A DNA stretch of 11,774 bases from Candidatus Nitrosopumilus sp. Lineage in GTDB: Archaea; Thermoproteota; Nitrososphaeria; Nitrososphaerales; Nitrosopumilaceae. This document shows, piece after piece, positions 1-11,774 of the stretch. The translations under genes and the position numbers were made by a program. The notes below the pieces were generated by a model. That model did not search any database, was not told the origin of the DNA, and saw only the letters and a program-made list of their open reading frames with translations. Where the stretch lies: contig JAEMQG010000038.1 in the NCBI GenBank assembly GCA_022758935.1, positions 1-11,774 on the forward strand. The letters run 5' to 3'. Every line of letters begins with the position of its first letter. Positions within the stretch are counted from its first letter, which is position 1.

Positions 1-22
1 AAAATCAAAGACATGTCATTAA

Positions 23-232
23 ATGGTTCTCAATAATCTTTTCCTTGCAAAGCCTGGATTTCAAGAAATATTGATAATTCTGATTATAGCAGGCGTGTTT
101 ATTTTTGGCGCAAAGAAAATTCCAGAATTGGCAAGAACGCTTGGTAAAGCCAAAGGTGAATTTGAGAAAGGAAAGATTGAGAGTGAAAAAGAACTCAGTG
201 ATCTCAAAAATAAGGAAGCAAAATCAGACTAG
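23..232 (+). CDS. tatA: Sec-independent protein translocase subunit TatA/TatE family
   Basis: This 69-residue protein has the TatA layout. A short N-terminus with a polar residue (Glu15) leads into one membrane helix at about residues 14-29, followed by a Phe-Gly hinge (28-29). An amphipathic helix starting KKIPELARTLGKAKGEFEKG comes next, then a charged tail. TatA forms the membrane pore or weakening patch through which folded twin-arginine-signal proteins, often metal or redox enzymes, are exported. The ATG at 23 is used because the ATG at 13 is in another frame and stops after seven codons. The promoter is mostly outside the window. The stop codon overlaps that of the convergent gene at 229. 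Family is clear; the TatA versus TatB/E label is by family resemblance. Confidence 0.93.
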   Translation: MVLNNLFLAKPGFQEILIILIIAGVFIFGAKKIPELARTLGKAKGEFEKGKIESEKELSDLKNKEAKSD

Positions 233-708
233 TTTTCTGCAATTACAGCAAAAGCGTCGATAATTTTAGAATATTCCTTAACAACATTAATTTTCCTAAG
301 AAAATAAATCAACCTCGTCGTGCATGTTAGTTTCCAATCAACTTCGAGAATCATCTTAGTTCCTTGTGGAATACACTCAAACTTTTTGGTTATATGAGTG
401 CCTTTTGTATCTCCCCCAATAACAAAGATTTCGTGTGATATTGGTTCATTAATTACATGTTTTACCATCATTACTAATTCGCGTCCTCCAATTCTCAAAT
501 GTTCTTCTACAACAGATACGTTTCCTCGAATTGAAATTACTCTAATTGATGGAAAATATTGTGGAAGAATTTTTTGAAAATTTGTATAGTGTGTAGATAT
601 TTCAAAGACTCTGTTTCTATCCGATTTTATAATTTTTTCAAAAACTGACTTTGGCAAATATAATCTAGAAAGTGCCCCAACGAGGGTATAAACTGTGCTC
701 AATGTCAA
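229..708 (-). CDS. SRPBCC (START/polyketide cyclase-like) domain protein
   Basis: The 159-residue product reads as a single SRPBCC helix-grip domain. An N-terminal strand and helix (about residues 20-52, SVFEKIIKS through ILPQYFPS) are followed by a run of alternating hydrophobic strands and a long C-terminal amphipathic helix (about 135-157). Such proteins bind hydrophobic ligands in a deep cavity, and no catalytic residue can be assigned here. It lies downstream of the ubiX-like gene on the same strand and is probably co-transcribed. The ATG at 708 overlaps ubiX by 44 bp, and its first 17 codons are just the ubiX tail read in another frame. A TTG at 657, just after the ubiX stop, fits the domain boundary better. 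The 3' end overlaps the tatA stop codon by 3 nt. Fold assignment is by pattern only. Confidence 0.8.
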   Translation of the reverse strand: MTLSTVYTLVGALSRLYLPKSVFEKIIKSDRNRVFEISTHYTNFQKILPQYFPSIRVISIRGNVSVVEEHLRIGGRELVMMVKHVINEPISHEIFVIGGDTKGTHITKKFECIPQGTKMILEVDWKLTCTTRLIYFLRKINVVKEYSKIIDAFAVIAEN

Positions 709-1222
709 ATTGATCCAAACACTTTCCTACACCATGATTTACAATATCATCGATAGTTTTTGGTTTTGTATAAAATTCTGTAACGGGCGGTAAAATTACA
801 ACTCCCAACCTAGACAGTTTAAGCATATTTTCAAGATGAATTGCAGATAGTGGAGTTTCCCTCACCATCAGGATTAATTTTCTTGATTCTTTAATTGTAA
901 CACCTGCAGCTCTTGCTACCAGAGTATCATCGTAACCATTTGCAATAGCTGAGAGAGTCTTCATGCTACAGGGCGCAATTATCATTCCATCGACCTTATG
1001 TGTTCCACTAGAAATACTAGAGGCCATATTTTTTTCATCAGAGATATTTGTCGCAAGAGATTTCACATAATCAAGTTGAAATTCAGTTTCCATTGAAATA
1101 CATTTTGTAGCCCATTCAGACATTATTAGATGAGTCTCGATGCCGGATTTATTGAGAACCTCCAGCAAACGAATTCCATAGATAACACCAGTGCTACCAG
1201 TAATTCCAACAATCAATCTCAT
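665..1222 (-). CDS. ubiX: UbiX/Pad1-family flavin prenyltransferase
   Basis: The 185-residue protein has the UbiX family signature: N-terminal GITGSTG (6-12) for flavin phosphate binding, a Ser after the second strand (S35), APCSMKTLSAIANGYDDTL (83-101), RETPLSAIHLENML (121-134), and a late PP...FYTKPKTIDDIVNH segment. Family members prenylate FMN with dimethylallyl phosphate to make the prenyl-FMN cofactor of UbiD-type decarboxylases. Length is normal. The ATG at 1222 sits 26 nt from the centre of a TATA-like box (1244-1251), so the message is probably leaderless. An SRPBCC gene follows directly. No ubiD partner is visible in the window, so the decarboxylase served is unknown. Confidence 0.93.
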   Translation of the reverse strand: MRLIVGITGSTGVIYGIRLLEVLNKSGIETHLIMSEWATKCISMETEFQLDYVKSLATNISDEKNMASSISSGTHKVDGMIIAPCSMKTLSAIANGYDDTLVARAAGVTIKESRKLILMVRETPLSAIHLENMLKLSRLGVVILPPVTEFYTKPKTIDDIVNHGVGKCLDQFDIEHSLYPRWGTF

Positions 1223-1243
1223 TATTATTTATCAGAGTTTAGA

Positions 1244-1251
1244 CTATTTTA
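1244..1251 (-). promoter_or_regulatory. TATA-like box of ubiX
   Basis: The minus strand reads TAAAATAG here. Its centre is about 26 nt upstream of the ubiX ATG, the usual archaeal TATA-to-start-site distance, so transcription should begin at or next to the start codon. Assigned by eye from spacing and composition. Confidence 0.5.
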
Positions 1252-1279
1252 TCCATTAGATTGAATCTTGAATTTGGCA

Positions 1280-1474
1280 CTAGTTATTTTGGCCACCATC
1301 TGTGCCCAGATCAAATTCATGCTGAGTTTTTCTTTTTTTAAGCCATAAAGAAAATCCCCCTATTATCATCGCAGATATCAAAATTACCCCAGTCAACTGT
1401 AATTCAAGAGAATATAACACACATAATCTTTCAATGATTATCAAAAAAATATTGTGATCATAAAATCGATCCAA
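1280..1474 (-). CDS. small single-pass membrane protein, unknown function
   Basis: The open frame encodes up to 64 residues with one clear hydrophobic helix (about residues 28-44, TGVILISAMIIGGFSLW). This is followed by a basic stop-transfer stretch, LKKRKTQ, and a short acidic/Asn-rich tail, giving an N-out topology. I do not recognise a family. The frame opens at TTG 1474, but the near-palindromic TATA element at 1489-1498 would put the start site near 1467, downstream of that TTG. A GTG at 1420 (46 residues, still containing the helix) is therefore a realistic alternative. Support is only the coherent helix/tail pattern and a promoter shared with purP. It may not be a gene. Confidence 0.42.
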   Translation of the reverse strand: MDRFYDHNIFLIIIERLCVLYSLELQLTGVILISAMIIGGFSLWLKKRKTQHEFDLGTDGGQNN

Positions 1475-1488
1475 ATGATTGAAAATTA

Positions 1489-1498
1489 GCTATATTAG
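1489..1498. promoter_or_regulatory. near-palindromic TATA element between purP and the small membrane ORF
   Basis: The sequence GCTATATTAG reads as a TATA box on both strands. On the plus strand its centre is about 26 nt before the purP GTG (1520), predicting a leaderless purP mRNA. On the minus strand it could serve the ORF ending at 1280. Inferred from spacing only. Confidence 0.5.
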
Positions 1499-1519
1499 AT
1501 CCCGTTTTCTAGTCAAGAT

Positions 1520-2611
1520 GTGATCAAAGCTTCTGAGATAAAGAAGATCGTAACCAACTATTCAGATATCAGAATAGGAGTGATGGGAAGTCATTCTGCG
1601 TTGGAAGTCATGGATGGAGCAAAAGACGAAAATTTTCACACTGTAGTTTACTGTCAAAAAGGGAGGGATGAGCCATATAGGAGATTTGGAAGAATAGCAG
1701 ATGAAATTGTCGTTTTAAACAAATTCAAAGACATGGCACTGCCAAAAATTCAAAAAAATTTGAGAGATACGAACACCATTGTTATTCCCCATAGATCATT
1801 TATTGTATATCTCGGGTACAAAGATTTAGAAAATTCATTCAAAGTACCAATATTTGGGAATAGAAATTTGTTCCGTGCAGAGGAAAGAACGGCTAAACGA
1901 AATCAATATTTTTTATTAGAAAAAGCTAAGATAAAATTTCCAAAGTTATTCAGAGATCCAAAAAATATCAACAAACCATGTATCGTTAAAGTTCAAGAGA
2001 TGAAAAGACCGCTAGAGCGTGCTTTCTTTACTGTATCCTCTTACAAAGACTATAAAGAGAAATCGGAGGAAAAAATAAAAAAAGGAATAATCTCCAGAAA
2101 AGAGTTAGAGCAAGCAAGCATAGAAGAATTGGCAATTGGAACATACATGAATTTTAATTTCTTTCACACACCAATTTCAAAACAAGTTGATTTTATAGGA
2201 ATAGAAAGAAGACTTCAAACCAATGTTCATGATTTTAATGCCCTTCCCGCAAAACAGCAGTTGGAAATAGATATTGATTTACAAAATATCGAGGTGGGTC
2301 ATACTCCAGCAAGTATTAGAGAGTCACTTCTTGAAAAAGTGATTAAAATGGGAGATAAATTTGCAGCTGCAGTAAAAAGAGAATACTCACCAGGAATAAT
2401 AGGTCCATTTTCGCTTCAAAGCGTCATTACAAAAGATTTAGAATTGATAGTATATGATGTATCACTAAGAGTTCCAGGAAATCCAATTCTAGCGACTACT
2501 AGTCCATATACAAAATATCAATATGGTCAAACTTTTGGTGTGGGACGAAGAATTGCCATTGAGATAAAACGCGCTCAAGAAGAAGACCGCCTAGATGAGA
2601 TAGTAACGTAA
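1520..2611 (+). CDS. purP: 5-formaminoimidazole-4-carboxamide ribonucleotide synthetase (FAICAR synthetase)
   Basis: This 363-residue protein is archaeal PurP, an ATP-grasp ligase that converts AICAR plus formate to FAICAR with ATP hydrolysis. It replaces the folate-dependent transformylase step of purine synthesis. The N-terminal pre-ATP-grasp domain carries GSHSALE (23-29), PHRSF (90-94) and FGNRNLFRAEE (112-122), all typical PurP substrate-site motifs. The ATP-grasp half runs from about 130, with ending motifs DVSLRVPGNP and YGQTFGVGRRIAIE near the C-terminus. Length matches the family. The start is GTG 1520; an overlapping ATG at 1518 is immediately followed by TGA in its own frame. The TATA element 26 nt upstream supports this leaderless start. 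No other purine genes are nearby. Confidence 0.96.
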   Translation: MIKASEIKKIVTNYSDIRIGVMGSHSALEVMDGAKDENFHTVVYCQKGRDEPYRRFGRIADEIVVLNKFKDMALPKIQKNLRDTNTIVIPHRSFIVYLGYKDLENSFKVPIFGNRNLFRAEERTAKRNQYFLLEKAKIKFPKLFRDPKNINKPCIVKVQEMKRPLERAFFTVSSYKDYKEKSEEKIKKGIISRKELEQASIEELAIGTYMNFNFFHTPISKQVDFIGIERRLQTNVHDFNALPAKQQLEIDIDLQNIEVGHTPASIRESLLEKVIKMGDKFAAAVKREYSPGIIGPFSLQSVITKDLELIVYDVSLRVPGNPILATTSPYTKYQYGQTFGVGRRIAIEIKRAQEEDRLDEIVT

Positions 2612-2647
2612 TATTACTTCGAAAGTTCAAACTACATAGAATGGTTT

Positions 2648-2657
2648 TTTTATAATT
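2648..2657 (+). promoter_or_regulatory. TATA-like box of the Cys-rich micro-protein
   Basis: TTTATAATTT here lies about 24 nt before the TTG at 2675. This is correct for a leaderless transcript starting at the codon and supports both the gene and its start. Confidence 0.45.
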
Positions 2658-2674
2658 TTAATTAAATTAACTAA

Positions 2675-2851
2675 TTGAATAGTTTTATTGTCAGATGTAG
2701 AGCATGTAAAAGCAAAATCATCATACCTGATCAAGGTCCATGCACAGATTTAGAATACATGGAATACATTAATGGATACAAAATAAAATGTAAGTGTAAA
2801 GAAGATGTTGGAGTTACTTTCCTGATTCAATCATGCAACACTGAGATTTAG
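2675..2851 (+). CDS. Cys-rich 58-residue micro-protein, probable zinc binder
   Basis: An open frame of 58 codons begins with TTG and ends at TAG 2851. Its product starts LNSFIVRCRACKSKIIPDQG and contains cysteines at 8, 11, 23, 39, 41 and 54: a CxxC knuckle (CRAC), then a CKC pair inside YKIKCKCKED. The spacing recalls a compact zinc ribbon or zinc finger, but I recognise no named family. A TATA-like box sits about 24 nt upstream, as for a leaderless gene, and the frame's composition is unlike the AT-rich spacer beyond it. It is 63 bp after purP on the same strand and just before the structured element at 2861. Function unknown; a nucleic-acid or metal-binding role is a guess from the cysteines. 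Confidence 0.62.
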   Translation: MNSFIVRCRACKSKIIIPDQGPCTDLEYMEYINGYKIKCKCKEDVGVTFLIQSCNTEI

Positions 2852-2860
2852 AAAATTAAA

Positions 2861-2938
2861 AAGGCGTAACCCTCAATTGCAGAACTCTGAGAGATTTCCT
2901 CTCGTGTTCAGGACGTTAAACGCCTGATTGCCTTTTTT
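2861..2938. ncRNA. structured GC-richer element: candidate ncRNA or complex terminator
   Basis: In very AT-rich surroundings this block folds into nested paired segments. AGGCGT 2862-2867 pairs with ACGCCT 2920-2925, AAC/GTT and CCT/AGG extend inward, GAAC 2882-2885 pairs with GTTC 2906-2909, and GAGAG 2889-2893 pairs with CTCTC 2899-2903 around a five-base loop. An alternative outer pairing, AAAAAGGC with GCCTTTTT, ends in a T6 run. The plus strand could be the terminator of the micro-gene that stops ten bases earlier. The minus strand also ends in T5 and has an A/T-rich box (about 2965-2976) placed to start a transcript near 2945. No tRNA, C/D box or H/ACA signature was found, so identity and strand stay open. 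Confidence 0.4.
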
Positions 2939-3530
2939 CGTTCTACAGGGCTACGCTGACTAATCGTTATTTTTTACAACTAACGACATCATTTAGTGGA
3001 AGATTTAATACTATTTAAGAGTTTATAATAAATTTTACAATAAATATTGGTAAATAATGTAAATTTTAAATAAACAAGCAAAACTAATGGATTGAGTACA
3101 ATTAATTCCAAGTGAAGCATTTATTCAAATGTATTTTGTTATGAGGTTAAAACATTAGCAAAATTACTAGAATCAATTATTTCGTAAAAAAATGTAAGGT
3201 CATCAAGAAAAATGACTTTCTAAAAAACAACACGAATTCATTTAATTCAATAATTCTATTAAATTCAAAATAAAATTTTGTTTCAGATAAAAGAAATTTT
3301 AAATTTTTATTACAAAAATATATTTGATTGATGAGATGTCATATAGATGTTAATTGGCTAGATTAGGAAATATGTTGAATACCTAACGTTTTATTTCAAA
3401 TAATTAAACGGTTTTTATTTGAAATAGAATTGCTGGATGCCAGTTAACATAAAATCAAAACTCTTTATTGTAGGTTTTTTAATTAAAATAACAGTTGCCT
3501 AGAACAATATACATTCGTGAAATAATCACG
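2939..3530. other. long AT-rich stretch without a recognisable gene
   Basis: I see no credible coding frame on either strand: all frames are broken by frequent stops or lack starts. The content is a TCGTTA/TAACGA inverted repeat (2964-2969 and 2981-2986, loop T-rich), several AATTCA words near 3235-3262, and the 11-bp inverted repeat at 3392-3426. The right end holds the A/T-rich promoter region of the CxxC protein. It could hide an undetected RNA gene, but nothing in the sequence specifies one. Confidence 0.5.
3392..3426. repeat. perfect 11-bp inverted repeat
   Basis: TATTTCAAATA (3392-3402) and TATTTGAAATA (3416-3426) are exact reverse complements separated by 13 bp that include a T5 run. 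Being all A/T but for one pair, it would be a weak hairpin. A dimeric regulator's operator is an alternative. It lies about 70-100 bp before the CxxC protein gene. Confidence 0.5.
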
Positions 3531-3755
3531 ATGCTAAAAGAACCAAAACTATGCCCCACATGTACAAAAGGTGATAAATTAGAAAAAAATATTGTCTTTG
3601 AAAGAAGATCAAATGGTCAAACACTCTTGTGTACACGTTGTGAGGCATTAACCGTAATCACAAATTACAATCTAAAAGAGATAGACTTGTATGCTGCAAA
3701 AGATCATCAGGTAATGCTAAAAGAACCTCATCTCATACGAAAAGTCACCTATTAA
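3531..3755 (+). CDS. small protein with two CxxC motifs, probable zinc ribbon
   Basis: From ATG 3531 the product is 74 residues, starting MLKEPKLCPTC. It carries two metal-knuckle motifs, CPTC and CTRC, about 26 residues apart with a hydrophobic strand between, the spacing of a four-cysteine zinc ribbon. The remainder is a charged helix-rich tail. The same frame can be opened upstream at TTG 3495 (86 residues), but the added residues precede the conserved-looking part. A TATA-like stretch (about 3503-3510) lies roughly 24 nt before the ATG. No named family recognised. Such small ribbons commonly bind nucleic acid or protein partners in archaea; that role is inference. Confidence 0.72.
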   Translation: MLKEPKLCPTCTKGDKLEKNIVFERRSNGQTLLCTRCEALTVITNYNLKEIDLYAAKDHQVMLKEPHLIRKVTY

Positions 3756-3782
3756 ATTTCATATTCAAAAAGACACATAAAA

Positions 3783-4019
3783 TTAAGAGATTAGCTCTTT
3801 AATGACATAGTTTCGAACGTTTGCAAATTCCCATTCCCGTAAATTAGCATTCTTACATTCCTCCTTAATTATTAGTCCTGCAAGACCCTTACTCCAGATG
3901 TGCCTATGCATGTCATATACCTCTAGAATTTTTCCATGTTTTGTAATTTTGATACTTCCATGACACCTCGCAATAATTTTAGCGGCGATATTTTGATATA
4001 AAATCTCAAGATTAGCCAT
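3783..4019 (-). CDS. conserved-looking 78-residue protein, function unknown
   Basis: The product begins MANLEILYQNIAAKIIARC and looks like a compact alpha/beta protein: helix, then strands (SIKITKHGKILEVYDMH), then helices ending VRNYVIKELIS. It contains three histidines and two cysteines but no arranged metal motif, and has no signal or membrane segment. I do not recognise it. A CATATG/TTATAATA region 15-25 nt upstream on the minus strand could be its TATA box, making the ATG at 4019 a leaderless start. It converges with the CxxC gene, whose stop is 27 bp away. Confidence 0.6.
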   Translation of the reverse strand: MANLEILYQNIAAKIIARCHGSIKITKHGKILEVYDMHRHIWSKGLAGLIIKEECKNANLREWEFANVRNYVIKELIS

Positions 4020-4090
4020 AAAGTATTATTATAATTAGCATATGAAAAATGTTCTGAAATGTAATAAGCCCAAACTAACCGGTTATACTC

Positions 4091-4096
4091 ATATAT
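4091..4096 (+). promoter_or_regulatory. TATA box of the candidate C/D box sRNA
   Basis: ATATAT is centred about 26 nt before position 4120. That predicts transcription starting three nucleotides before the C box at 4123, where C/D sRNAs normally begin. Confidence 0.5.
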
Positions 4097-4117
4097 CTTG
4101 GAGCACAGAATACAACA

Positions 4118-4186
4118 AGTGCTGATGATTAATAGAAAAGCTATATCTGATTGTTGATGAGTTTGCCGAATTATGAAGCATTTTTC
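4118..4186 (+). ncRNA. candidate archaeal C/D box guide sRNA
   Basis: The ordered boxes are present: C box TGATGA (4123-4128), D' CTGA (4147-4150), a four-base spacer, C' TGATGA (4155-4160), then a 12-nt guide and a D-like ATGA (4173-4176). The short flanks GTGC and GCAT can pair as the terminal stem. A TATA box lies correctly upstream and a T5 run follows at 4181-4185. The guide GTTTGCCGAATT would pair with AATTCGGCAAA, which I recall as a conserved archaeal 23S rRNA stretch. By the D-plus-five rule the C in AATTC would be 2'-O-methylated by the fibrillarin/Nop5/L7Ae complex. The D box deviates (ATGA for CTGA), and the C-D' interval is 18 nt rather than about 12, so the second guide is doubtful. 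Confidence 0.62.
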
Positions 4187-4269
4187 ATTTTATATAGTTG
4201 ATTCAGATCCGTAACAAAGCCCAACACGTATTTTGATAATAAACCTCTACATATGAGAGAATAACAAAT

Positions 4270-4839
4270 ATGAAAATGGAGGACTCTGCAGATATTGTTC
4301 TAGGAGCAAAAAAGTTTGCACATGAGAAACATAAAAATCAAAAAACACGGAATATGACGAGTCCATATTCTGATCATTTAGAAGGAGTTGTCAGTAGACT
4401 CAAAAACTTGGGAATCACTGATAAAAACATTCTTTGTGCTGCTTGGCTTCACGATGTAATAGAAGATACAGATGCGGATTTTGATCAGATCAATGAGAGA
4501 TTTGGAAGAGAGATAGCAGTTACTGTTTTGTCACTAACAAAAGATCATAATCTTTCAAAAAAAGACAGAGAAACTCAATATATCAAGCAGTTAAGAGATG
4601 CAACGCTTCAAGCAAAAATCATAAAATTGTGTGACATAGCAGATAATTTAAAAGATCTATTAAATGCACCGATTTCACAGACACAAAAAAACAAGCAGGT
4701 AAAAAAAATACTGCATTATCTCAGAGTGATTAAAAACGACATAATAGAAAATAAATCAAATTATCCAAAAATTCAAGAAATTCTCGATGGGGTAAATATC
4801 ATATGTGTCAAATTCAAACAAAAACCAATTTTAACTTAG
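4270..4839 (+). CDS. MESH1/SpoT-like HD-domain hydrolase
   Basis: This 189-residue single-domain protein has the small alarmone hydrolase pattern. Residues 18-28 HEKHKNQKTRN are followed by SPYSDH (H36), AAWLHDVIEDTD (H61, D62, E65, D66) and KLCDIADN (D122, N126). The His, HD and Asp residues are the Mn-binding set, and ED plus Asn complete the catalytic site. The numbering nearly coincides with animal MESH1. Family members remove pyrophosphate from (p)ppGpp, and MESH1 also dephosphorylates NADPH. There is no synthetase or TGS/ACT domain, so this is a stand-alone hydrolase of the cytoplasm. It starts at ATG 4270 (a second ATG is two codons on), with an A/T-rich promoter-like stretch about 30 nt upstream. 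The true substrate in this archaeon is unknown. Confidence 0.85.
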   Translation: MKMEDSADIVLGAKKFAHEKHKNQKTRNMTSPYSDHLEGVVSRLKNLGITDKNILCAAWLHDVIEDTDADFDQINERFGREIAVTVLSLTKDHNLSKKDRETQYIKQLRDATLQAKIIKLCDIADNLKDLLNAPISQTQKNKQVKKILHYLRVIKNDIIENKSNYPKIQEILDGVNIICVKFKQKPILT

Positions 4840-4958
4840 AACTTGTTTTAATATGTAATTCCATCAGTGGTATAAGTTAAACATCCAAATTTTAGGAAAT
4901 TCAGACTCAAATAAATAGATGAAATGCAGAAATATGATTCAATTAGAGATTGATAAGA

Positions 4959-5159
4959 TCATGACTGCAATACGTCATATACTTGCTCTTCTGTTGATTC
5001 TTTTAGGTCTTGAATTAGATTGACTTTCCCGTATTTTTCCATACTAAATTTCTCAAAATTATCAATTGCTATCAAAAAGCCCTCCTGAGAGCCTTCTGTC
5101 TGACTCTGTATTTTCTCCTTAAATGACTCCTTTGTTCTTTCTAGTCTTGTAATTCCCAT
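4959..5159 (-). pseudogene. N-terminal fragment resembling a tyrosine recombinase core-binding domain
   Basis: The 66-residue frame begins MGITRLERTKESFKEKIQSQ and continues with GFLIAIDNFEKFSMEKYGKV. This helical pattern resembles the SAM-like N-terminal domain of archaeal phage-type integrases (sequence around 'FLxAIxNFExF' and 'EEQVYDVLQ'). A TGA then follows, where the family would continue with 'W-N' and hundreds more residues. The downstream frames carry no catalytic domain (no Arg...HxxR...Tyr). It therefore looks like a leftover of a broken integrase, or a domesticated stand-alone domain with its own start. The integrase likeness is from memory and the start (ATG 5159) has no clear promoter, so the fragment could also be an independent small gene. 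Confidence 0.45.
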
Positions 5160-5161
5160 CT

Positions 5162-5279
5162 ATTGTTCAAATAGAATTACTTGTACTTAATGAAAACTAT
5201 TGGGTGTTCAATAAAATTGTTATTCATTCATAGTTAATAATACATTAAAGAAAATTGTTCTAAATCATCATAATTGTTC
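5162..5279. repeat. three copies of ATTGTTC in a short spacer
   Basis: ATTGTTC occurs at 5162-5168, 5254-5260 and 5273-5279. The last two are 19 bp apart, about two helical turns, and the third reads ATTGTTCA like the first. They lie between the integrase-like fragment and the DUF151 gene and could be regulator sites, though A/T-rich chance matches are likely too. Confidence 0.3.
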
Positions 5280-5289
5280 ATTTAATTTC

Positions 5290-5715
5290 TTAAGCTTCCA
5301 TGTGTTCTTTAAGCAGATTTTTTCTAACTAGAATTGGAATATTATAAAATGCACCCAATGCCATAGCATCAGATGCACGATAATTTCGTAAAACCATGTC
5401 CTTTTTTCCAGTAAAATACAAGTTTGCGCGGAGTACTTCACCACTATCATAAATTTTGACCTTGACTAAAACCAATTCATTCTCCTCACAAATCTCCTCC
5501 ATCATTTTGTAAATCGATGGACCCGGTTCATCAGTACTTTCAATAAAGCTGGATATGTGTCGAGCAACTTCACCAGAAAACGCTCTCATGTGAAATTCTT
5601 TGCCATCAGGTGCTTTTAGAACTAGCATTCCTTCAACTGCATATGGATCAACAAATCCAACATAATCAATTTGTACTGTCTCATAATCAGGCTCTTGTGC
5701 TTGATCAATTTCCAT
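5290..5715 (-). CDS. bifunctional nuclease (BFN/DUF151) domain protein
   Basis: The product (141 residues from ATG) is a single BFN domain. It has an N-terminal beta-rich part with a 'GMLVLKAPDGKEFHMRAFSGEVARHISSFI' segment, a middle region, and the hallmark end RASDAMALGAFYNIPILVRKNLL near the C-terminus. The RASDA motif is the RPSDA of the family. BFN proteins are reported nucleases in plants and bacteria, and archaeal members have unknown biology. The frame can be extended to TTG 5730, but the TATA box CTTTATAAGC (5745-5754, minus) puts the start site near 5722. That is downstream of the TTG and a few bases before the ATG at 5715, so ATG 5715 is chosen. No operon partners. Confidence 0.88.
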   Translation of the reverse strand: MEIDQAQEPDYETVQIDYVGFVDPYAVEGMLVLKAPDGKEFHMRAFSGEVARHISSFIESTDEPGPSIYKMMEEICEENELVLVKVKIYDSGEVLRANLYFTGKKDMVLRNYRASDAMALGAFYNIPILVRKNLLKEHMEA

Positions 5716-5744
5716 TATATCTACACTCAATATCCCAAGTCAGT

Positions 5745-5754
5745 GCTTATAAAG
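5745..5754 (-). promoter_or_regulatory. TATA box of the DUF151 gene
   Basis: CTTTATAAGC on the minus strand is one of the best TATA boxes in the window. Its distance to the ATG at 5715 (about 34 nt from its centre) allows a short leader. Its distance to the alternative TTG at 5730 (about 19 nt) does not allow transcription to include that codon. Confidence 0.55.
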
Positions 5755-5995
5755 ATACTAAAGTTTTTGGATTAATTCCAATTGAATTTTTTACAACGTT
5801 CAGGTGATTGGATAAAATCTAAAATTATTTAATGCTAATAATGTATCTTTTTGTCGACAAATCCAAAACACTCCATATTGTAAGTCCCTATAAAATTAAT
5901 TTTTATTTACATGAACAAAATTTTCTAATGTTAAAGTAAAATACATGTATCCGAGAAGCAGTTAAAATGTCGGAAGATTATAATTGAAAGGCAAA

Positions 5996-6043
5996 AATTA
6001 TAGGCATGATCTTGTCTGTGCCTAAATTGATTTAGAAGATCAT
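5996..6043 (+). promoter_or_regulatory. possible H-type RNA pseudoknot in the leader of the CPTC membrane protein
   Basis: Two interlocking inverted repeats occur here. AATT-(A)-TAGGCA (5996-6006) pairs with TGCCTAAATT (6019-6028). Inside that loop ATGATCTT (6006-6013) pairs perfectly with AAGATCAT (6036-6043) downstream. As RNA they form the S1a-S2a-S1b-S2b order of an H-type pseudoknot, or two alternative hairpins, 46 nt before the start of the membrane-protein gene. A translational or transcriptional control element is one reading, two overlapping protein operators another. Linker lengths (0, 5 and 7 nt) are tight, so a base pair or two at the junction would have to open. Confidence 0.4.
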
Positions 6044-6089
6044 CAAAAAATAGAATAGAATTTAATTCAATAATAGATAATTTAGAATA

Positions 6090-6917
6090 ATGGAAACCCA
6101 GAAATCAAATATCCATAGTGGAAAAAAGCTAATAGTTTTGGGATTTACTACGATAGTTGTCATATTCATAATGTATGCCAGATATCAAAATTCAGAAACG
6201 TTCACACCCGACGCTATGGATTCTATTCAACGTATTGCATACGGTTTTTACATAGTGCTTTTGGTATCGTTTGGGGCAATTACTTATGGAATTTATCTAT
6301 ATCACGGAAACAAGGTAATGAAAAAAGGAAAAGATCTAATAACAATCATTGCACTAACTACATGGAATACAAAATCAAAAAAAATCTTTGTTTTAGCCTT
6401 TGTCGGATATGGAATTTTCTTTTCACTAGTATCAGGAACATTGGTATATCAACCAGAAGTAAATTTTGCAATACATTATGGAGCAAAAATTCCATCTGGA
6501 TTCCTATCACCGTGTTGTGATGAAATTGGATACATGCCAAAAATAATCGTCTACTTGACAGAACACATAGGATTACAAATCATACCGATTAATTTGGTAT
6601 TACAAATAACGGTGTCTTATTTAGTGGGGTTAAATGCAGCTATTGCAGCTAGCGCATATTCTATTTCAAAGAAAGGGCGGGGGATGAGTTCAATTGGTGC
6701 AGTGACAGGATTATTCATAGCGTGCCCAACATGTGCTGGAGCATTTTCATCAATTTTCATAGGAACTGCAAGTGGTATCGCATTATCAATTGCACTGACA
6801 CAGCTACAAACATTATTTATTGCAATATCAATACCTGTGTTGGTAGTTACACCTTTTGTAATGGCTAGGAGATTAAGAAATTCGGATGGTAGTTGTAAAA
6901 TAGATCCTACAAAATAA
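6090..6917 (+). CDS. multi-pass membrane protein with an intramembrane CPTC motif, function unknown
   Basis: This 275-residue protein has about six hydrophobic helices (roughly 13-31, 50-71, 99-121, 163-189, 202-224 and 228-258). Two cysteine sites stand out. One is CCDEIGYMP (142-150) in the loop before helix four. The other is GLFIACPTCAGAFS (207-220), a CxxC inside a membrane helix flanked by small residues. Such a pairing could carry a thiol/disulfide relay or bind a metal such as copper, but I know no family with both. One further cysteine (269) lies in the basic tail. ATG 6090 is the first start in frame. The possible pseudoknot is 46 nt upstream. Its 3' end overlaps the convergent gene by 11 bp. 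Confidence 0.8.
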   Translation: METQKSNIHSGKKLIVLGFTTIVVIFIMYARYQNSETFTPDAMDSIQRIAYGFYIVLLVSFGAITYGIYLYHGNKVMKKGKDLITIIALTTWNTKSKKIFVLAFVGYGIFFSLVSGTLVYQPEVNFAIHYGAKIPSGFLSPCCDEIGYMPKIIVYLTEHIGLQIIPINLVLQITVSYLVGLNAAIAASAYSISKKGRGMSSIGAVTGLFIACPTCAGAFSSIFIGTASGIALSIALTQLQTLFIAISIPVLVVTPFVMARRLRNSDGSCKIDPTK

Positions 6918-7179
6918 ATTTTTTGACTTCAGGAATTTTATTATTCCCTATATCATAACCATCGCGTCTAAGAAATTTTAATGTAAGTTTGTAAATTAAT
7001 TCATCGTGATCTACTTGATTTAATATCTCAGTCCAGAGCACCTTTCCATGTTCTTCGATCTGTTTCTTAAATGATGGATTTATGGATTCGGCAATTTCTC
7101 TGCATTGATCAAAAGTTTTACCATTTTTATATGCACGAACTCGAGTATCACAACTATCCACAAAATAAGTAAAAAACAT
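6907..7179 (-). CDS. 90-residue protein, function unknown
   Basis: The product, starting MFFTYFVDSCDTRVRAYK, is mostly helical and charged. The central segment reads FDQCREIAESINPSFKKQIEEHGKVLWTEILNQV and the end is a strand-rich LIYKLTLKFLRRDGYDIG. There is no signal peptide, membrane helix or known motif, and the two cysteines (10, 26) are not arranged for metal. A TTAAAC box about 24 nt before the ATG at 7179 fits a leaderless start. It overlaps the membrane-protein gene 3' end by 11 bp on the opposite strand. I do not recognise it. Confidence 0.58.
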   Translation of the reverse strand: MFFTYFVDSCDTRVRAYKNGKTFDQCREIAESINPSFKKQIEEHGKVLWTEILNQVDHDELIYKLTLKFLRRDGYDIGNNKIPEVKKFIL

Positions 7180-7346
7180 CCTAATTTAATTTCCATGTGT
7201 TTAACATAAGATAATCTATACACAGTGAAAAAATGAAAAAACGAACATCGTATTATATATTATTCATCGCGTCTGATGGCTTATTTTGTCAAATTTTAAT
7301 TTTGTTATAATCGGATGGATTTTTTAATGAAAATATAGATATTCTT

Positions 7347-7553
7347 CTAACTATTGTCTTTTTTGTCAATATCAATCATATTTTGATTAAATTCATTATT
7401 ATCTGAGCGTAGTTCGTTGGATTTCTTTTCTAATTTTTCAGTTTTTCTTTCAGTATTAATTTTTTTTTCATTCACGATACCCCACACAAATTTTAACATA
7501 GAATGAATGTTATTCTCATAAAGATAAGATTCTGTTTGTTCACAACATGACAT
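7347..7553 (-). CDS. small charged protein with predicted coiled coil, weakly supported
   Basis: The 68-residue frame starts MSCCEQTESYLYENNIHSM. A short hydrophobic part (LKFVWGIVN) is followed by a Lys/Glu/Asn-rich stretch that could form a coiled coil (KINTERKTEKLEKKSNELRS), and a low-complexity tail. A vicinal Cys pair sits at residues 3-4. The composition also fits random A/T-rich sequence, and no promoter is convincing. It is transcribed divergently from the gene at 7596 with 42 bp between starts. No family recognised. Confidence 0.42.
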   Translation of the reverse strand: MSCCEQTESYLYENNIHSMLKFVWGIVNEKKINTERKTEKLEKKSNELRSDNNEFNQNMIDIDKKDNS

Positions 7554-7595
7554 GTTTTGAGGAGAATTATCAGAGATTCCAAATAACAGTCAAAA

Positions 7596-7871
7596 TTGTA
7601 CATATTAAATCAAATACTAGAAATCGATACAAAAAGTGTGGGGATAAAAACGGTTACAGATTATGTAAGATTCTACATAAATCTAGAGATGCAAAATAAG
7701 GTGAGTTTATTGAGTTTCATCAATAATGAAAAAATAGTTTTAAAACACAAGTTGGAAAACAAAAGATCAGATAAAGACTCGATGTTCAACGGCATTAGAA
7801 TTTTAGAGGAATTAGGTGAAGAAATTAAGAGTGATGGGGAATTAGCAGTTTTAGAAAAATATGGCAAATAG
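7596..7871 (+). CDS. 91-residue protein, possibly ribbon-helix-helix-like, unknown function
   Basis: The frame opens with TTG 7596 directly after a TAA three codons earlier. The start of the product, MYILNQILEIDTKSVGIKT, continues VTDYVRFYINLEMQNK. This resembles the helix pair of small DNA-binding ribbon-helix-helix proteins (the 'GxxTxxDYVRFxI' pattern), but the N-terminal strand of that fold is missing or very short. The rest is helical and charged, ending LEKYGK. A GTG at 7638 with a TATATTAA-like box (about 7600-7610) upstream is an alternative start. Real-gene support is modest, and an antisense frame (7673-7912) covers the same bases but looks less protein-like. Confidence 0.5.
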   Translation: MYILNQILEIDTKSVGIKTVTDYVRFYINLEMQNKVSLLSFINNEKIVLKHKLENKRSDKDSMFNGIRILEELGEEIKSDGELAVLEKYGK

Positions 7872-7892
7872 AAATTGATGTAGAAACAAAAC

Positions 7893-7946
7893 ATGGCAGC
7901 ATCACCAGCCATAAGAAAAATGCTTGTAAATTCTAGGTTTAAGTAA
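7893..7946 (+). other. 17-codon mini-ORF overlapping an ATGGC/GCCAT hairpin
   Basis: Between the two plus-strand genes a short frame reads MAASPAIRKMLVNSRFK and stops at 7946, just before the promoter of the winged-helix gene. Its first bases form a hairpin, ATGGC (7893-7897) with GCCAT (7908-7912), ten-base loop. It could be a remnant, a leader peptide or the terminator of the preceding gene; evidence for translation is absent. Confidence 0.2.
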
Positions 7947-7969
7947 AACTAAATCTATCGAAAATAGAG

Positions 7970-8536
7970 ATGGCACTAGACTCAGATATTATCAGGACAG
8001 AAATAATACGCGTATTAAATGAAAATGGGAAAATTCGTGGAAATGAACTTGTAAGTAGAGTAATAAAAAAAGTTGGAAATGAAAAATTAGTCTATAGAGA
8101 AATCAGTTCACTTGTAGAATCAGGCGAGGTTGAAAAAAAAATGCACAGTAAATCACACATTGAATACAATCTGATCAACTTATCTGAATCTGTAAATAAT
8201 CAACTCAAAAGCGTCCATAGAGAAATTGAAATGGTTTTTGATGAAATTAAAGAATTTAATCAGATCAATGATCAAAATAAAATTGAATTTCAAGGAAGAT
8301 TGAGAACGGTAATACATTTTATCCACATTGTTCAATCCATAGACGGAGTAATGAAGCTCTTATCACACTACCCTACTTTTAAAAAAGACAAAATGTTTTC
8401 GCAGATCACAAGAAAAATAAGTGATTGCTGGGAAAATATTCTAGAAAATATTGCACACCAGCCAGAAGAAGAATTCCTCAATGAGGTAATAGCAAATCTG
8501 AGAATTTCATCTATAGACTCTCGCTGTATTAATTAA
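7970..8536 (+). CDS. winged-helix DNA-binding protein with C-terminal helical domain
   Basis: The 188-residue product has an N-terminal winged helix-turn-helix at about residues 4-68. IIRTEIIRVLNENGKIRGNE forms the first helices, LVSRVIKKVGNEKLVYREISSLVESGEV the turn and recognition helix, and KKMHSKSHIEYNLI the wing. A helical, partly coiled-coil segment (70-100) leads to a C-terminal helical bundle that may dimerise. It is likely a transcription regulator of the type expanded in this phylum; its targets are unknown. A TTTAAG box about 30 nt upstream fits the ATG at 7970. The downstream stretch holds a decayed gene on the other strand. Confidence 0.78.
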   Translation: MALDSDIIRTEIIRVLNENGKIRGNELVSRVIKKVGNEKLVYREISSLVESGEVEKKMHSKSHIEYNLINLSESVNNQLKSVHREIEMVFDEIKEFNQINDQNKIEFQGRLRTVIHFIHIVQSIDGVMKLLSHYPTFKKDKMFSQITRKISDCWENILENIAHQPEEEFLNEVIANLRISSIDSRCIN

Positions 8537-8585
8537 ATTATAATTTCTAAAACATCACAAAGTTAGTACTGCTGTTTCAGTTTTT

Positions 8586-8848
8586 CTACAACAAATTAAA
8601 AATTTTATCGTCATCCAACAGAATAAAAGATATGTTATTTTTAGACATGCCGAACAATTTTCAGCATCACTTGTAATCAGAATTACATTACTTTCCTTTG
8701 TAAAATTAATTACAGAATAATTACCACGTGGTTTATGACCGTCGGAATGTAGTTTTTTGACACTGCATGTATCACGCCATAGATTATGAAGTATGTCATC
8801 TCATCCATCCTCCATTTCATTAATCAAAATTTTAATTGGTTTTAGCAT
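8586..8848 (-). pseudogene. decayed small gene with one nonsense codon and one frameshift
   Basis: Read from ATG 8848, the frame gives MLKPIKILINEMEDG, hits TGA at 8801-8803, then continues open as DDILHNLWRDTCSVKKLHSD and on through SVINFTKESNVILITSDAE and NCSACLK. At the five-T run 8638-8642 the sense then changes to an improbable Cys/Phe-rich string. Adding one base there restores NNISFILLDDDKIFNLL and a stop at 8586. So two lesions, a Trp or Arg codon to TGA and a one-base deletion in a homopolymer, disrupt an about 87-residue protein with three Cys (DTC and CSAC). Sequencing error in a homopolymer could explain the second but not the first. I do not recognise the family. Confidence 0.5.
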
Positions 8849-8963
8849 AAAATTCACTAAACAGATTTCAACATTAGTATTAATGATTATTATCAAAGAA
8901 AAAGAAAATACTAGTAAAAAAATAGTCAGAGACATAAAAAACTAGGAATATTGCAAGTTATAA

Positions 8964-9323
8964 TCAATCATGGTAATTTCGAGCCAAGTCAAATAATTCT
9001 TCACAAAATGGATTCAAGCGATTAGACAAGACACCATCAAACCAAGATAGTTCTTTATCAACATTGTATTTTCTAACAAAGTGTATTGTGGGAGAATCAG
9101 ACACGTTAAAAACAAACTCATTTTCAAATAGTTGTGTTACTTGATTTTGCCCATCTAGTGTCAGATTATAGTGACAAGTCATTAAATCGATTTGAACGAA
9201 ATAATGTCCATTACTAGGGTTTATTCTTGCTTTGATAAATGGTTGATTATTTTGAGAGCATTCTCGATAGTGCTTGTCATATTCGAACATTTTTGAATCC
9301 ACAATAAATTTTTTTAATGACAA
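8964..9323 (-). CDS. 119-residue protein, function unknown
   Basis: The product begins MSLKKFIVDSKMFEYDKHYR and looks like an alpha/beta protein. A strand-rich centre (ARINPSNGHYFVQIDLMTCHYNLTLDG, then ENEFVFNVSDSPTIHFVRK) is followed by a C-terminal helix (LNPFCEELFDLARNYHD). No signal, membrane helix or known motif. The frame opens at TTG 9323; ATG 9290 (108 residues) is the alternative and lies the better distance from a CAATATG box near 9342. It is 29 bp behind the DUF6659-like gene on the same strand, so the two may be co-transcribed. I do not recognise it. Confidence 0.6.
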   Translation of the reverse strand: MSLKKFIVDSKMFEYDKHYRECSQNNQPFIKARINPSNGHYFVQIDLMTCHYNLTLDGQNQVTQLFENEFVFNVSDSPTIHFVRKYNVDKELSWFDGVLSNRLNPFCEELFDLARNYHD

Positions 9324-9352
9324 TTTGAAAATGACTAATTCATATTGGAAAG

Positions 9353-9730
9353 TTAAAGATCAGCAGTAATTTTTTTAATTCTTGTGACTAGTCGAATTTT
9401 TGTATCTATTGACATTTCAGGCTCCATTGTAAAATAAATAATATTTCTTTTTGTATAGGTTACCATTTGGGTTAATTTTTCTCTCTCAACATGAACGTAA
9501 CGAACCTTACCAAGAGTTCTATCAAATTCTTGCCTCATTTTTCTCCTCTGAGCAACTTGTTTGCAAAAATGTTCTTCTTCTTTTTGATTTTTAAGAGAGG
9601 TCTTCCCACTTTTCATAATTCCTTCTCTAATATTCCCTTTAGTGTCAATGATTGCTGCAAATCTCATTTTAGGATCCAGATTAATAATAGATTCAACGAT
9701 TTTTAACAGATCTGATTTTATTACTCCCAT
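9353..9730 (-). CDS. DUF6659-like (roadblock-type) protein
   Basis: The 125-residue product resembles the DUF6659 proteins of ammonia-oxidising archaea and, more loosely, the roadblock/LC7 fold. A helix (SDLLKIVESIINLDPKM) leads into strand/turn RFAAIIDTKGNIREG (23-37). A charged helix (QKEEEHFCKQVAQRRKMRQE) is followed by strands VRYVHVEREKLTQMVTY and NIIYFTMEP, and a last helix KIRLVTRIKKITADL. Roadblock proteins often act as scaffolds or as partners of small GTPases; the role here is not known. The ATG at 9730 lies about 29 nt from a TATA-like AATATATTT (9755-9763, minus), so the mRNA is probably leaderless. Family assignment is from memory of the pattern. Confidence 0.7.
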   Translation of the reverse strand: MGVIKSDLLKIVESIINLDPKMRFAAIIDTKGNIREGIMKSGKTSLKNQKEEEHFCKQVAQRRKMRQEFDRTLGKVRYVHVEREKLTQMVTYTKRNIIYFTMEPEMSIDTKIRLVTRIKKITADL

Positions 9731-9754
9731 TACAAATCTAAAAGAAAATTTACC

Positions 9755-9763
9755 AAATATATT
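9755..9763 (-). promoter_or_regulatory. TATA-like box of the DUF6659-like gene
   Basis: AATATATTT is centred about 29 nt before the ATG at 9730, typical of a leaderless or near-leaderless archaeal promoter; the downstream gene at 8964 may share the transcript. Confidence 0.45.
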
Positions 9764-9844
9764 CTAACGAAGTATTTCAAATCAGGGAGCATAATGTGTG
9801 TAAAAAATCCACATATTTTTGATTCTTGATCGATTAAAATACAA

Positions 9845-9997
9845 TTAACTTGGCTCATCGGAAATTACACATTCGGTATGTAAATCATCAGCAAAATGAG
9901 TACATGTAGCGCATTGAAATGGTTGTTCGCAAACCATACACGTAGTTAAAAAGTCGAGACATTCAACACAATATCGACTTGAATCAGTATCCAGCAT
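9845..9997 (-). CDS. 50-residue B-box-like zinc-binding protein
   Basis: This short frame starts at ATG 9997, right after an in-frame TAA three codons upstream, and ends at TAA 9845. The product, beginning MLDTDSSRYCVECLDFLTTC, has ordered metal ligands: C10-x2-C13, C20-x2-C23, C29-x2-C32, then H34, H40 and C43. That is a two-site cross-brace arrangement like a B-box/MYND-type finger packed into 50 residues. It is one of the most convincing unlisted genes in the window because nine ligands in regular CxxC spacing are unlikely by chance. Function is unknown; protein or RNA binding is typical of such fingers. TTTTTAATG about 30 nt upstream may be its TATA box. Confidence 0.78.
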   Translation of the reverse strand: MLDTDSSRYCVECLDFLTTCMVCEQPFQCATCTHFADDLHTECVISDEPS

Positions 9998-10078
9998 ATC
10001 GGTTATTAATAACATTAAAAAATAGAGTTAAAACAAAGTCACAGTAATTTCTATCGATAATTAGTCAATCTAGATTTA

Positions 10079-10951
10079 CTAATTTTGAGCCAGATTCATT
10101 GCAATCAATGTAGACATTATTTTTGCCGCAATTGATGCAGTAGCCCCATTGTCATATTGTGGATTTAGTTCCACTATATCAACACCTGTCACTTTTTTAT
10201 TCTCAAGTGAATAAATCAAATCAAAGAGTTCCCTGGACGTCATGCCTGCAGCCTCAGGGTTACCGACTCCTGGGGCATATGCAGGATCTAAAACATCAAG
10301 ATCAAAACTAGTATACAATGAATCAAAAGAAGACACAAATTCTTTGAGAAGATGTGGACCTTTTCCTTCACGTACTTGTCTGTCAGAAATTGTTTTAATC
10401 TTGTTTTCTTTTAGAAATTCAAGCTCTTCCTTTACGAATGCTCTTGCACCAACATGCAGTATGTTTTCAGCGCCTCTTTTTTCTACAATTCTTCTAAGAT
10501 AAGCTGCATGACTTAGTTTGACGTTTGCATATTCGTCACGTAAATCATAGTGGGCATCAAATACAACATAGCCTGTTTCTTTTGGGAAGCTCATGAATGA
10601 GCCATATGTAATAGAGTGTTCTCCTCCTAAAATGAACAGTTGTCTTTTTTTTGCAACCAGTTCCTTTGTGATTTTGCCAACCATCTCAATCATTTCGCTT
10701 GCCAAAACCGTGTGAGATGTGTTCCCCAGGTCTTCAATGTTCACAGTTTCCAAATCAATACCAAATTGAGGGTGAAATATCTCAATGTTGTTAAATGCGT
10801 CACGGATCACATCAGGTCCAAATCTACATCCAGGTTTGTAAGAGTGTGTAGAATCAAAGGGAATTCCAAAGACAGTTGCCACAGGTTCAGAATCACTATT
10901 GGAAGCAGTAATCATCGGATTTCTATTCATGTATAAATCTAGGAAACTCAT
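10079..10951 (-). CDS. speB: arginase/agmatinase-family ureohydrolase, probable agmatinase
   Basis: The 290-residue protein has all manganese-site motifs of the ureohydrolases: GGEHS (109-113, ligand H112), DAHYDLRDEY (132-141, ligands D132, H134, D136) and SFDLDVLDPAYAPGVGNPEAAG (216-236, ligands D217, D219), with VDIVELNP near the end. It hydrolyses a guanidino substrate to urea. The layout fits agmatinase, which gives putrescine, but guanidinobutyrase or another member cannot be excluded from sequence. The start, ATG 10951, is 4 bp after the thrS stop on the same strand, so it is translated from a thrS message by coupling; no separate promoter is visible. Length is normal. Confidence 0.9.
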   Translation of the reverse strand: MSFLDLYMNRNPMITASNSDSEPVATVFGIPFDSTHSYKPGCRFGPDVIRDAFNNIEIFHPQFGIDLETVNIEDLGNTSHTVLASEMIEMVGKITKELVAKKRQLFILGGEHSITYGSFMSFPKETGYVVFDAHYDLRDEYANVKLSHAAYLRRIVEKRGAENILHVGARAFVKEELEFLKENKIKTISDRQVREGKGPHLLKEFVSSFDSLYTSFDLDVLDPAYAPGVGNPEAAGMTSRELFDLIYSLENKKVTGVDIVELNPQYDNGATASIAAKIMSTLIAMNLAQN

Positions 10952-10955
10952 TTTT

Positions 10956-11774
10956 TTACACCATTAATTGTGGTCTCTGAGAAAGATATTTTGGAAGATT
11001 CAGCCCAGTAAAGGGTTTACCCTTTGTTTGCGCACTTGCTTCATTAATGAAATCATCAAAGGACAACTCTCGTACATTTCCTGATTGTCTGTCTCGGATA
11101 CTTAGATTTTTCGAATTTGCTTCCTTTTCACCAATTACAAGTGTATAACGAATCCAGTCTTTTTCTGAGTCACGAATTCGTTTTCCAATACTTTCATTTC
11201 GGTCATCAATGTCAACTCGAATGTTGTTAGACGATAGGTTATCAGCCAAAGTATCACAGATTTTAGAAAATTCTTCAGTTAGCGGAATTACGCGTACTTG
11301 TGTAGGTGCAAGCCATAGTGGAAATTGGGGTTTTCTACCTTCAACTATATCTTGTGCGGCCTTCTCCAAAAGTACGTAGATAATTCTTTCAATTGCACCG
11401 CTTGGTGAATTGTGCAAAATGATAGGATGTTTTGAAATATTGTTTTCATCTACAAATTTAATCCCATAGCGTTCTCCATTTTCTACATCTATTTGATCAG
11501 TGGAAAGTGCAGATGCTTTTCCAAAATTATCGATGAAGTTAAATTCCCATTTTAAAACAAAATAAAAGAATTTTTCTCTCCACATTTCAACCAGCACTGG
11601 TCTACCATGTTTTTTAACAATCTCTTCAATTGAAGACTTGTTTTCATTATAGAAATCTTCGGTGAATCGAATAGCCATTTCATAATCAGAGCTTTCAATT
11701 CCAAGTTCTTTTAAAACATCGCGAGATAAATCAAATCTAATTTTGATTTCTTGGATTGATTGTTCAATGTCTTT
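10956..11774 (-). CDS. thrS: threonyl-tRNA synthetase, C-terminal part (5' end outside the window)
   Basis: The frame is open to the window edge, giving the last 272 residues of a class II synthetase; the first 32 visible residues (KDIEQSIQEIKIRFDLSRDV onward) precede the internal Met at 11678, so that Met is not the start. Class II motif 3 is seen as HNSPSGAIERIIYVLLE. The HGTP anticodon-binding domain follows as PLWLAPTQVRVIPL, then DIDDRNESIGKRIRDSEKDWIRYTLVIGEKE. It charges tRNA-Thr. The N-terminal editing domain and motifs 1-2 lie beyond 11774. The sequence ends ...YLSQRPQLMV and is followed after 4 bp by speB on the same strand, a tight two-gene arrangement. Confidence 0.95.
   Translation of the reverse strand, partial: KDIEQSIQEIKIRFDLSRDVLKELGIESSDYEMAIRFTEDFYNENKSSIEEIVKKHGRPVLVEMWREKFFYFVLKWEFNFIDNFGKASALSTDQIDVENGERYGIKFVDENNISKHPIILHNSPSGAIERIIYVLLEKAAQDIVEGRKPQFPLWLAPTQVRVIPLTEEFSKICDTLADNLSSNNIRVDIDDRNESIGKRIRDSEKDWIRYTLVIGEKEANSKNLSIRDRQSGNVRELSFDDFINEASAQTKGKPFTGLNLPKYLSQRPQLMV

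Follow-up and report, generated by a model that had tools for sequence, protein, structure and literature searches.

Archaeal C/D box sRNAs (Omer 2000, Gaspin 2000 and Dennis 2015, as cited in the consulted sections of PMC7994747) carry the boxes C, D', C' and D in this order, with a guide adjoining each D box, and their dual guides address two sites near each other on one rRNA. In Pyrobaculum, most rRNA-targeting C/D RNAs are dual guides with sites less than 100 nt apart, according to the same sections of PMC7994747. The molecules have a stem and a kink-turn, and the lineages that possess them have fibrillarin and Nop5 genes. All of these features recur in the RNA described here, including the box order, but it differs from the described ones in two respects. 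Known archaeal C/D box sRNAs have RUGAUGA and CUGA as boxes C and D, whereas this RNA has AUGAUUA and AUGA. Furthermore, the seven species listed in the consulted text of PMC7994747 include no ammonia oxidisers, the group from which this RNA comes. Archaeal guide RNA sets have been described mostly from hyperthermophiles, as far as the sections used of PMC7994747 and PMC4644070 indicate, while ammonia-oxidising archaea are abundant mesophiles. We found no description of their C/D RNAs in the open-access literature, including the available parts of PMC8481954, PMC8339473 and PMC3608112; this is weak evidence of absence, as subscription papers lay mostly outside that scope. The guide RNA class is well known, and the RNA at 4119-4181 looks like a new, well-conserved member of it.

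The RNA gene lies in a stretch of 11,774 nucleotides (hereafter the window) from Candidatus Nitrosopumilus sp. (assembly GCA_022758935.1, contig JAEMQG010000038.1, positions 1 to 11,774 of the forward strand). An original prediction, made from the letters alone, had placed a C/D box sRNA between two protein genes, and the flanks agree with this: ORF 3783-4019 (- strand) lies on one side and an HD-domain gene, ORF 4270-4839 (+ strand), on the other. Five of the elements that it named were recovered as described, namely a TATA-like element, the D' box CTGA, the C' box TGATGA (4155-4160), a 12-nt guide and a D-like ATGA (Table 1). The RNA reads GUGCU-G-AUGAUUA-(D' guide)-CUGA-UUG-UUGAUGA-GUUUGCCGAAUU-AUGA-AGCAU, and its 5' stem follows the TATA-like element after a gap of 20 nt. 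No tRNA was found within the window. No Rfam family passed its threshold there and three weak matches were dismissed; RF01126 (sR41) aligns to 4121-4162 with similar box spacing, but it scores 17 bits where the gathering threshold is 54 (E 2.6), which reflects likeness of boxes and not membership.

Table 1 Features of the guide RNA locus, in window coordinates.
Feature	Position	Strand	Basis or remark
TATA-like element CATATATCT, putative promoter	4090-4098	+	read in the letters
C/D-type guide RNA gene	4119-4181	+	letters and conservation
Terminal stem, 5' strand GTGCT	4119-4123	+	pairing with 4177-4181
First kink-turn loop nucleotide, G here	4124	+	A in 9/128 homologues
Box C AUGAUUA, off the RUGAUGA consensus by U at position 6	4125-4131	+	homologue rows, stem register
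D' guide	4138-4146	+	AAGCUAUA (4138-4145) complementary to 23S UGUAGCUU, E. coli 1684-1691
Box D' CUGA	4147-4150	+	letters
Box C' UUGAUGA	4154-4160	+	letters; decayed in some relatives, e.g. GTGAAGA in L018
D guide GUUUGCCGAAUU (DNA GTTTGCCGAATT)	4161-4172	+	complementary to 23S AAUUCGGCAAAU
Box D AUGA, non-canonical	4173-4176	+	potential pair between its first A and box C U4130
Terminal stem, 3' strand AGCAU	4177-4181	+	pairing with 4119-4123
Conserved AATAAACCTCTACATAT 5' of the HD-domain gene, outside the RNA	4238-4254	+	identity 0.71 in bin 4235-4244, 0.89 in bin 4245-4254

We assign a probability of about 90% to the reading that 4119-4181 encodes a C/D box sRNA with its own promoter, a dual guide to 23S rRNA in a kink-turn RNP that directs methylation. 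Transcription from this promoter would yield an RNA of about 63-68 nt, in which the terminal stem, the kink-turn of box C AUGAUUA and box D AUGA, and an internal C'/D' motif would form and bind L7Ae, Nop5 and fibrillarin. Pairing of the D guide with 23S AAUUCGGCAAAU would then direct 2'-O-methylation to the C corresponding to E. coli 1670. By its contact with UGUAGCUU, the D' guide may direct methylation of A1687 (E. coli numbering) or, in other lineages, of G1688; alternatively it might mainly hold the rRNA while it folds. The anatomy, the conservation, the stem pairing, both complementarities and the fibrillarin and Nop5 genes of relatives are observed, whereas we infer transcription, RNP assembly and methylation, the function from the pairing. 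Most likely one or two nucleotides of the ribosome are methylated under the guidance of this RNA.

The position of box C had to be revised. The original prediction took TGATGA at 4123-4128 as box C, a register in which no purine precedes the box and no three-base loop is possible between box and stem. In a kink-turn, a loop of three bases joins the stem to box C. Moving box C to 4125-4131 gives the loop G-A-U, directly adjoined by the stem GUGCU/AGCAU. In addition, G4124, which lies inside TGATGA 4123-4128, is replaced by A in 9 of 128 distinct homologues (3 of 90 type A and 6 of 38 type A' RNAs), leaving ATGATTA unchanged. The stem pairing and these base changes, which touch only the former register, therefore place box C at 4125-4131. 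The terminal stem itself, proposed as GTGC/GCAT, exists but is one pair longer (GTGCT/AGCAT), and it brings boxes C and D together as in other archaeal C/D box sRNAs. Its three pairs nearest the kink form in 128/128 homologues and the fourth pair in 101/128, with two compensatory changes, U-A to C-G in three homologues of one clade and G-C to A-U in one. The predicted T5 run is present at 4181-4185 but is not conserved among homologues. Minimum-energy folding predicted for the RNA without proteins preserves the terminal stem but puts box bases into ordinary helices, which counts against the preferred reading.

Among 53 model-aligned rows with GCCGAATT, box C is ATGATTA in all 53 and box D is ATGA in 52, the remaining one having ATAA; the terminal motif thus departs throughout from the consensus of RUGAUGA and CUGA. 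ATGATTA also stands in 128/128 members of the homologue set, a count that is partly built in because the set was collected by a pattern fixing part of box C (GATT, with variation allowed only in the region of positions 1-2 and at the end), the guide and part of box D; the stem was left free. The letters needed for two sheared G-A pairs and for a looped-out uridine in box C are kept, as far as letters can tell (GA of AUGAUUA in 53/53, GA of AUGA in 52/53). The consensus for box C is RUGAUGA, and a k-turn test applied in prediction asks for a Watson-Crick pair between box C position 6 and box D position 1 (both from the consulted sections of PMC7994747). Here, U at box C position 6 stands opposite A at box D position 1, a possible U-A pair where the consensus has G-C. 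This suggests, but does not prove, a joint swap of G-C for U-A between the two boxes. The type B RNAs described below combine AUGAUGA with AUGA or UUGA and so show no compensation (box D ATGA in 13 and TTGA in 3 of 16 rows). Boxes off consensus can still be functional in eukaryotes, according to the consulted parts of PMC5389607 and PMC6770171. The RNAs described here are a natural experiment on the latitude that boxes C and D have to leave the consensus if they change jointly.

The 23S targets were read in relatives because no 23S gene was found in the window's assembly (85% complete). Among 38 relatives in which the target stretch was read, all 17 carriers of the RNA with readable 23S have AAUUCGGCAAAUUAGUCCUGUAGCUUAGG, with both target stretches intact. 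The D guide GTTTGCCGAATT forms 11 Watson-Crick pairs and one G-U with the first 12 bases of this stretch, contiguously and at -15.1 kcal/mol, and it matches a single place in 23S. When the letters of the guide were shuffled, 34 of 20000 versions reached 12 contiguous pairs with at least 11 Watson-Crick in the 23S of one relative. The rRNA-complementary guide lies 5' of box D with its position 5 paired, and this nucleotide (G4168) is opposite the C corresponding to position 1670 of E. coli 23S, which is the predicted methylation site. E. coli numbering follows an ungapped by-eye alignment to the E. coli 23S gene, with GGAAC starting at 1664. The original prediction had named this 23S match, and it proved right: AATTCGGCAAA occurs in the 23S of 17/17 RNA-carrying genomes with readable 23S, at E. 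coli 1666-1676, the GGAACUAGGCAAAA region that it had named, and the expected C lies opposite guide position 5 in the relatives' 23S. The 10-12 bp rRNA match on which the prediction hinged is present in these sequences, and its boxes are kept in close relatives without loss. The target stretch presumably adjoins helix 61. Helix 61 in domain IV of the large-subunit rRNA is listed as a methylation hotspot in the part of PMC4644070 consulted.

An altered stretch (AACUC, AACUCGAC, UGUACCUU and others) is found in 8 of the 38 relatives, and no RNA copy was found in any of these eight by model search with stricter filters and by pattern. Seven of them gave weak model matches (E 2e-4 to 0.045; the weakest type A copy read has 5e-7). 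In another 13 of these 38 relatives the AAUUCGGCAAA stretch is unaltered, yet a type A copy was not detected, so that the presence of the RNA is not determined by the target alone. Guide-target covariation cannot be demonstrated, because the target is invariant among the 17 carriers read. We also searched 300 genomes of the class for TTGCCGARTTNTGA guides with a G fitting the AACUC target of other genera. Among the hits read, which covered part of the others ending in TTTGA or lying in type A-bearing genomes, the three GAGTT hits (L144, L145, L333), seven odd GAATT hits (L146, L151, L329, L330, L331, L332, L334) and also L165 and L335 lack boxes and were rejected as guides. Nor do we claim a longer helix joining the D guide to the nucleotides that follow box C, as its pairs are nearly invariant and show no covariation.

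For the D' guide the original prediction had named no target. Its 8-mer AAGCUAUA, next to box D', forms 8 contiguous pairs, one of them G-U, with 23S UGUAGCUU, which starts 18 nt past the start and 6 nt past the end of the first target. This match is unique in 23S under the rule of 8 pairs with one G-U, and 51 of 20000 shuffled 8-mers land within 60 nt of the D target. The commonest D' guide of the Nitrosopumilus type, CUAAGCUAUA(A), forms 10 pairs with one G-U at the same 23S place, where 13 of 20000 shuffled 10-mers of this type fall within 60 nt of the D target. In one carrier, G077, a slightly longer match to the window-type D' guide lies beyond the 23S gene in another part of the rRNA locus, and comparable alternative matches occur in some other carriers. 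Scored over one 39-nt stretch of 23S, the D' duplex retains 7 or more contiguous pairs in 84 of the 90 type A RNAs (the best duplex of the other 6 has 6 pairs or fewer), while the nucleotide opposite D' position 5 is A1687 in 60, G1688 in 22 and another in 8. The D' pairing is therefore better kept than the site. This would also be expected if the RNP served mainly as an rRNA folding chaperone whose guides clamp E. coli 1666-1692, with methylation at the D' site secondary or absent, and such roles have been proposed for archaeal dual guides in the consulted sections of PMC4644070 and PMC7994747. We consider a predominantly chaperoning role unlikely, although it is compatible with the preferred reading: the spacing between D guide and box D is constant in the homologues read, which a pure chaperone would not need. 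Comparison between species could separate pairing from methylation position.

That the D guide aims at another or additional target, such as an mRNA or tRNA, and matches 23S incidentally appears very improbable. AATTCGGCAAA does occur at three further places in the window's genome beyond the two RNA copies, but the 23S stretch is intact in all carriers read and the second guide matches right alongside it.

Of 41 genomes searched at the DNA level, 18 carry the RNA segment, the window's own among them. The carriers comprise 16 of 17 other genomes of the same genus (Nitrosarchaeum-type) and one of another genus of the family; the only miss within the genus is G011, a 61% complete assembly. Altered versions occur in Nitrosopumilus and related genera. 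The D guide, box D and AAGC are identical in 19/19 type A copies examined from this search. Fourteen copies from other genomes and two from the window's assembly make up a set of 16 for the genus; within it, identity to the window is 0.81-1.00 in the bins that span the RNA (4115-4184), with 1.00 in bin 4165-4174, against 0.21-0.45 in the 50 nt downstream. Elsewhere in the flanks, where some bins are coding, values go up to 0.89. The bins over the TATA region have 0.86 (4085-4094) and 0.68 (4095-4104). This alignment was anchored on exact GCCGAATTATGAAGC, and no input copy was dropped for want of it. Judged from these bins, the conservation over the RNA exceeds chance. That there is no RNA gene, and that a conserved promoter or leader of the HD-domain gene accounts for these identities, is hardly tenable: the RNA does lie directly 5' of this gene in most genus genomes having both, but the gene is more than 110 kb off in G001 and about 0.9 kb (G006) and 1.3 kb (G014) away in others, the RNA also occurs in Nitrosopumilus-type genomes, and a distinct conserved element, AATAAACCTCTACATAT, already precedes the HD-domain gene, of which it is probably the own promoter.

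On a wider scale, 153 genomes out of 300 in the class gave covariance-model matches at E <= 0.1, a tally that mixes types A, A' and B with weak matches. A scan of named genomes gave at least 118 stretches with TTGCCGAATTATGAAGC among the matches listed. Of these 118, 95 are archaeal, 94 with a box C upstream and one (L310) ending before it, and the 23 without an upstream box C are all bacterial by title. One exact 17-mer match in viral contigs, without boxes, was rejected as chance.

The lineage encodes both fibrillarin and Nop5. A fibrillarin gene passed the cut-off in 24 of 25 relatives and a Nop gene was found in 11/11 genomes including the window's own. In the window's assembly (85% complete) only Nop, and no fibrillarin, passed the cut-off; its Nop gene stops 224 nt short of a contig end, and in G008 this is the side on which fibrillarin follows. 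G096 (99% complete, with Nop and the RNA present) likewise has no fibrillarin over the cut-off. In the single-contig genome G008, the Nop domain is split over two overlapping frames (L197, 3-413 and 410-1411), a frameshift or sequencing error.

The window's assembly holds a second RNA with an HD-domain gene on contig C108 (L002). Over 878 nt this copy shares 93.6% identity with L011, a contig of another species, while the window's own stretch is closest to L004 (84.8%). The second copy probably results from a mixed bin, which is likelier than duplication. The same genome also encodes a type B C/D sRNA of 66 nt (G000:C126:1985-2050, L095), whose D' guide GGAAAAGCCG forms 10 pairs with 23S CGGCUUUUCC of relative G077, a target that we take to be near the peptidyl transferase centre (E. 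coli numbering). A GC-richer version with stem CGCC/GGUG is found in three genomes of the large neighbour group g27 (L187, L188, L189); the neighbouring 23S stretch, as read in relatives, gave no match to its D' guide. A further C/D-like RNA (L098 300-366, G180) has box C AUGAUGA, box D AUGA and different guides, with AAUUGGCAAGCUU at D; only weak rRNA matches were found for it.

Type A' accounts for 38 of the 128 homologues and comes from Nitrosopumilus-type genomes and two Nitrosopelagicus records. It has the same D guide core as type A, UUGCCGAAUU-AUGA, but a different D' guide, CAACGGGUUCU in 30/38. For this D' guide the best 23S match, of 10 pairs, begins only at position 5 of the guide, so that no target is claimed. 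In genomes with both types A and A', among them G106 and N. salaria BD31, the same C would be guided twice. Tentatively, and at somewhat less than even odds, we propose a C/D RNA family of Nitrosopumilaceae in which boxes C and D changed jointly (kink-turn G-C to U-A). Some members would use types A and A' with a common D guide core; guidance of one 23S nucleotide would then be redundant, while the partner guide drifts or is swapped; the D' pairing would be under selection and the exact methylated nucleotide would not. The three RNA types A, A' and B provide testable 23S sites in these archaea. RNAs L174-L186, L190-L193, L101, L112, L113 and L172 are of type A' with the D' guide CAACGGGUUCU or a related one, and many of these carry UUUCCUCAAA between D' and C'.
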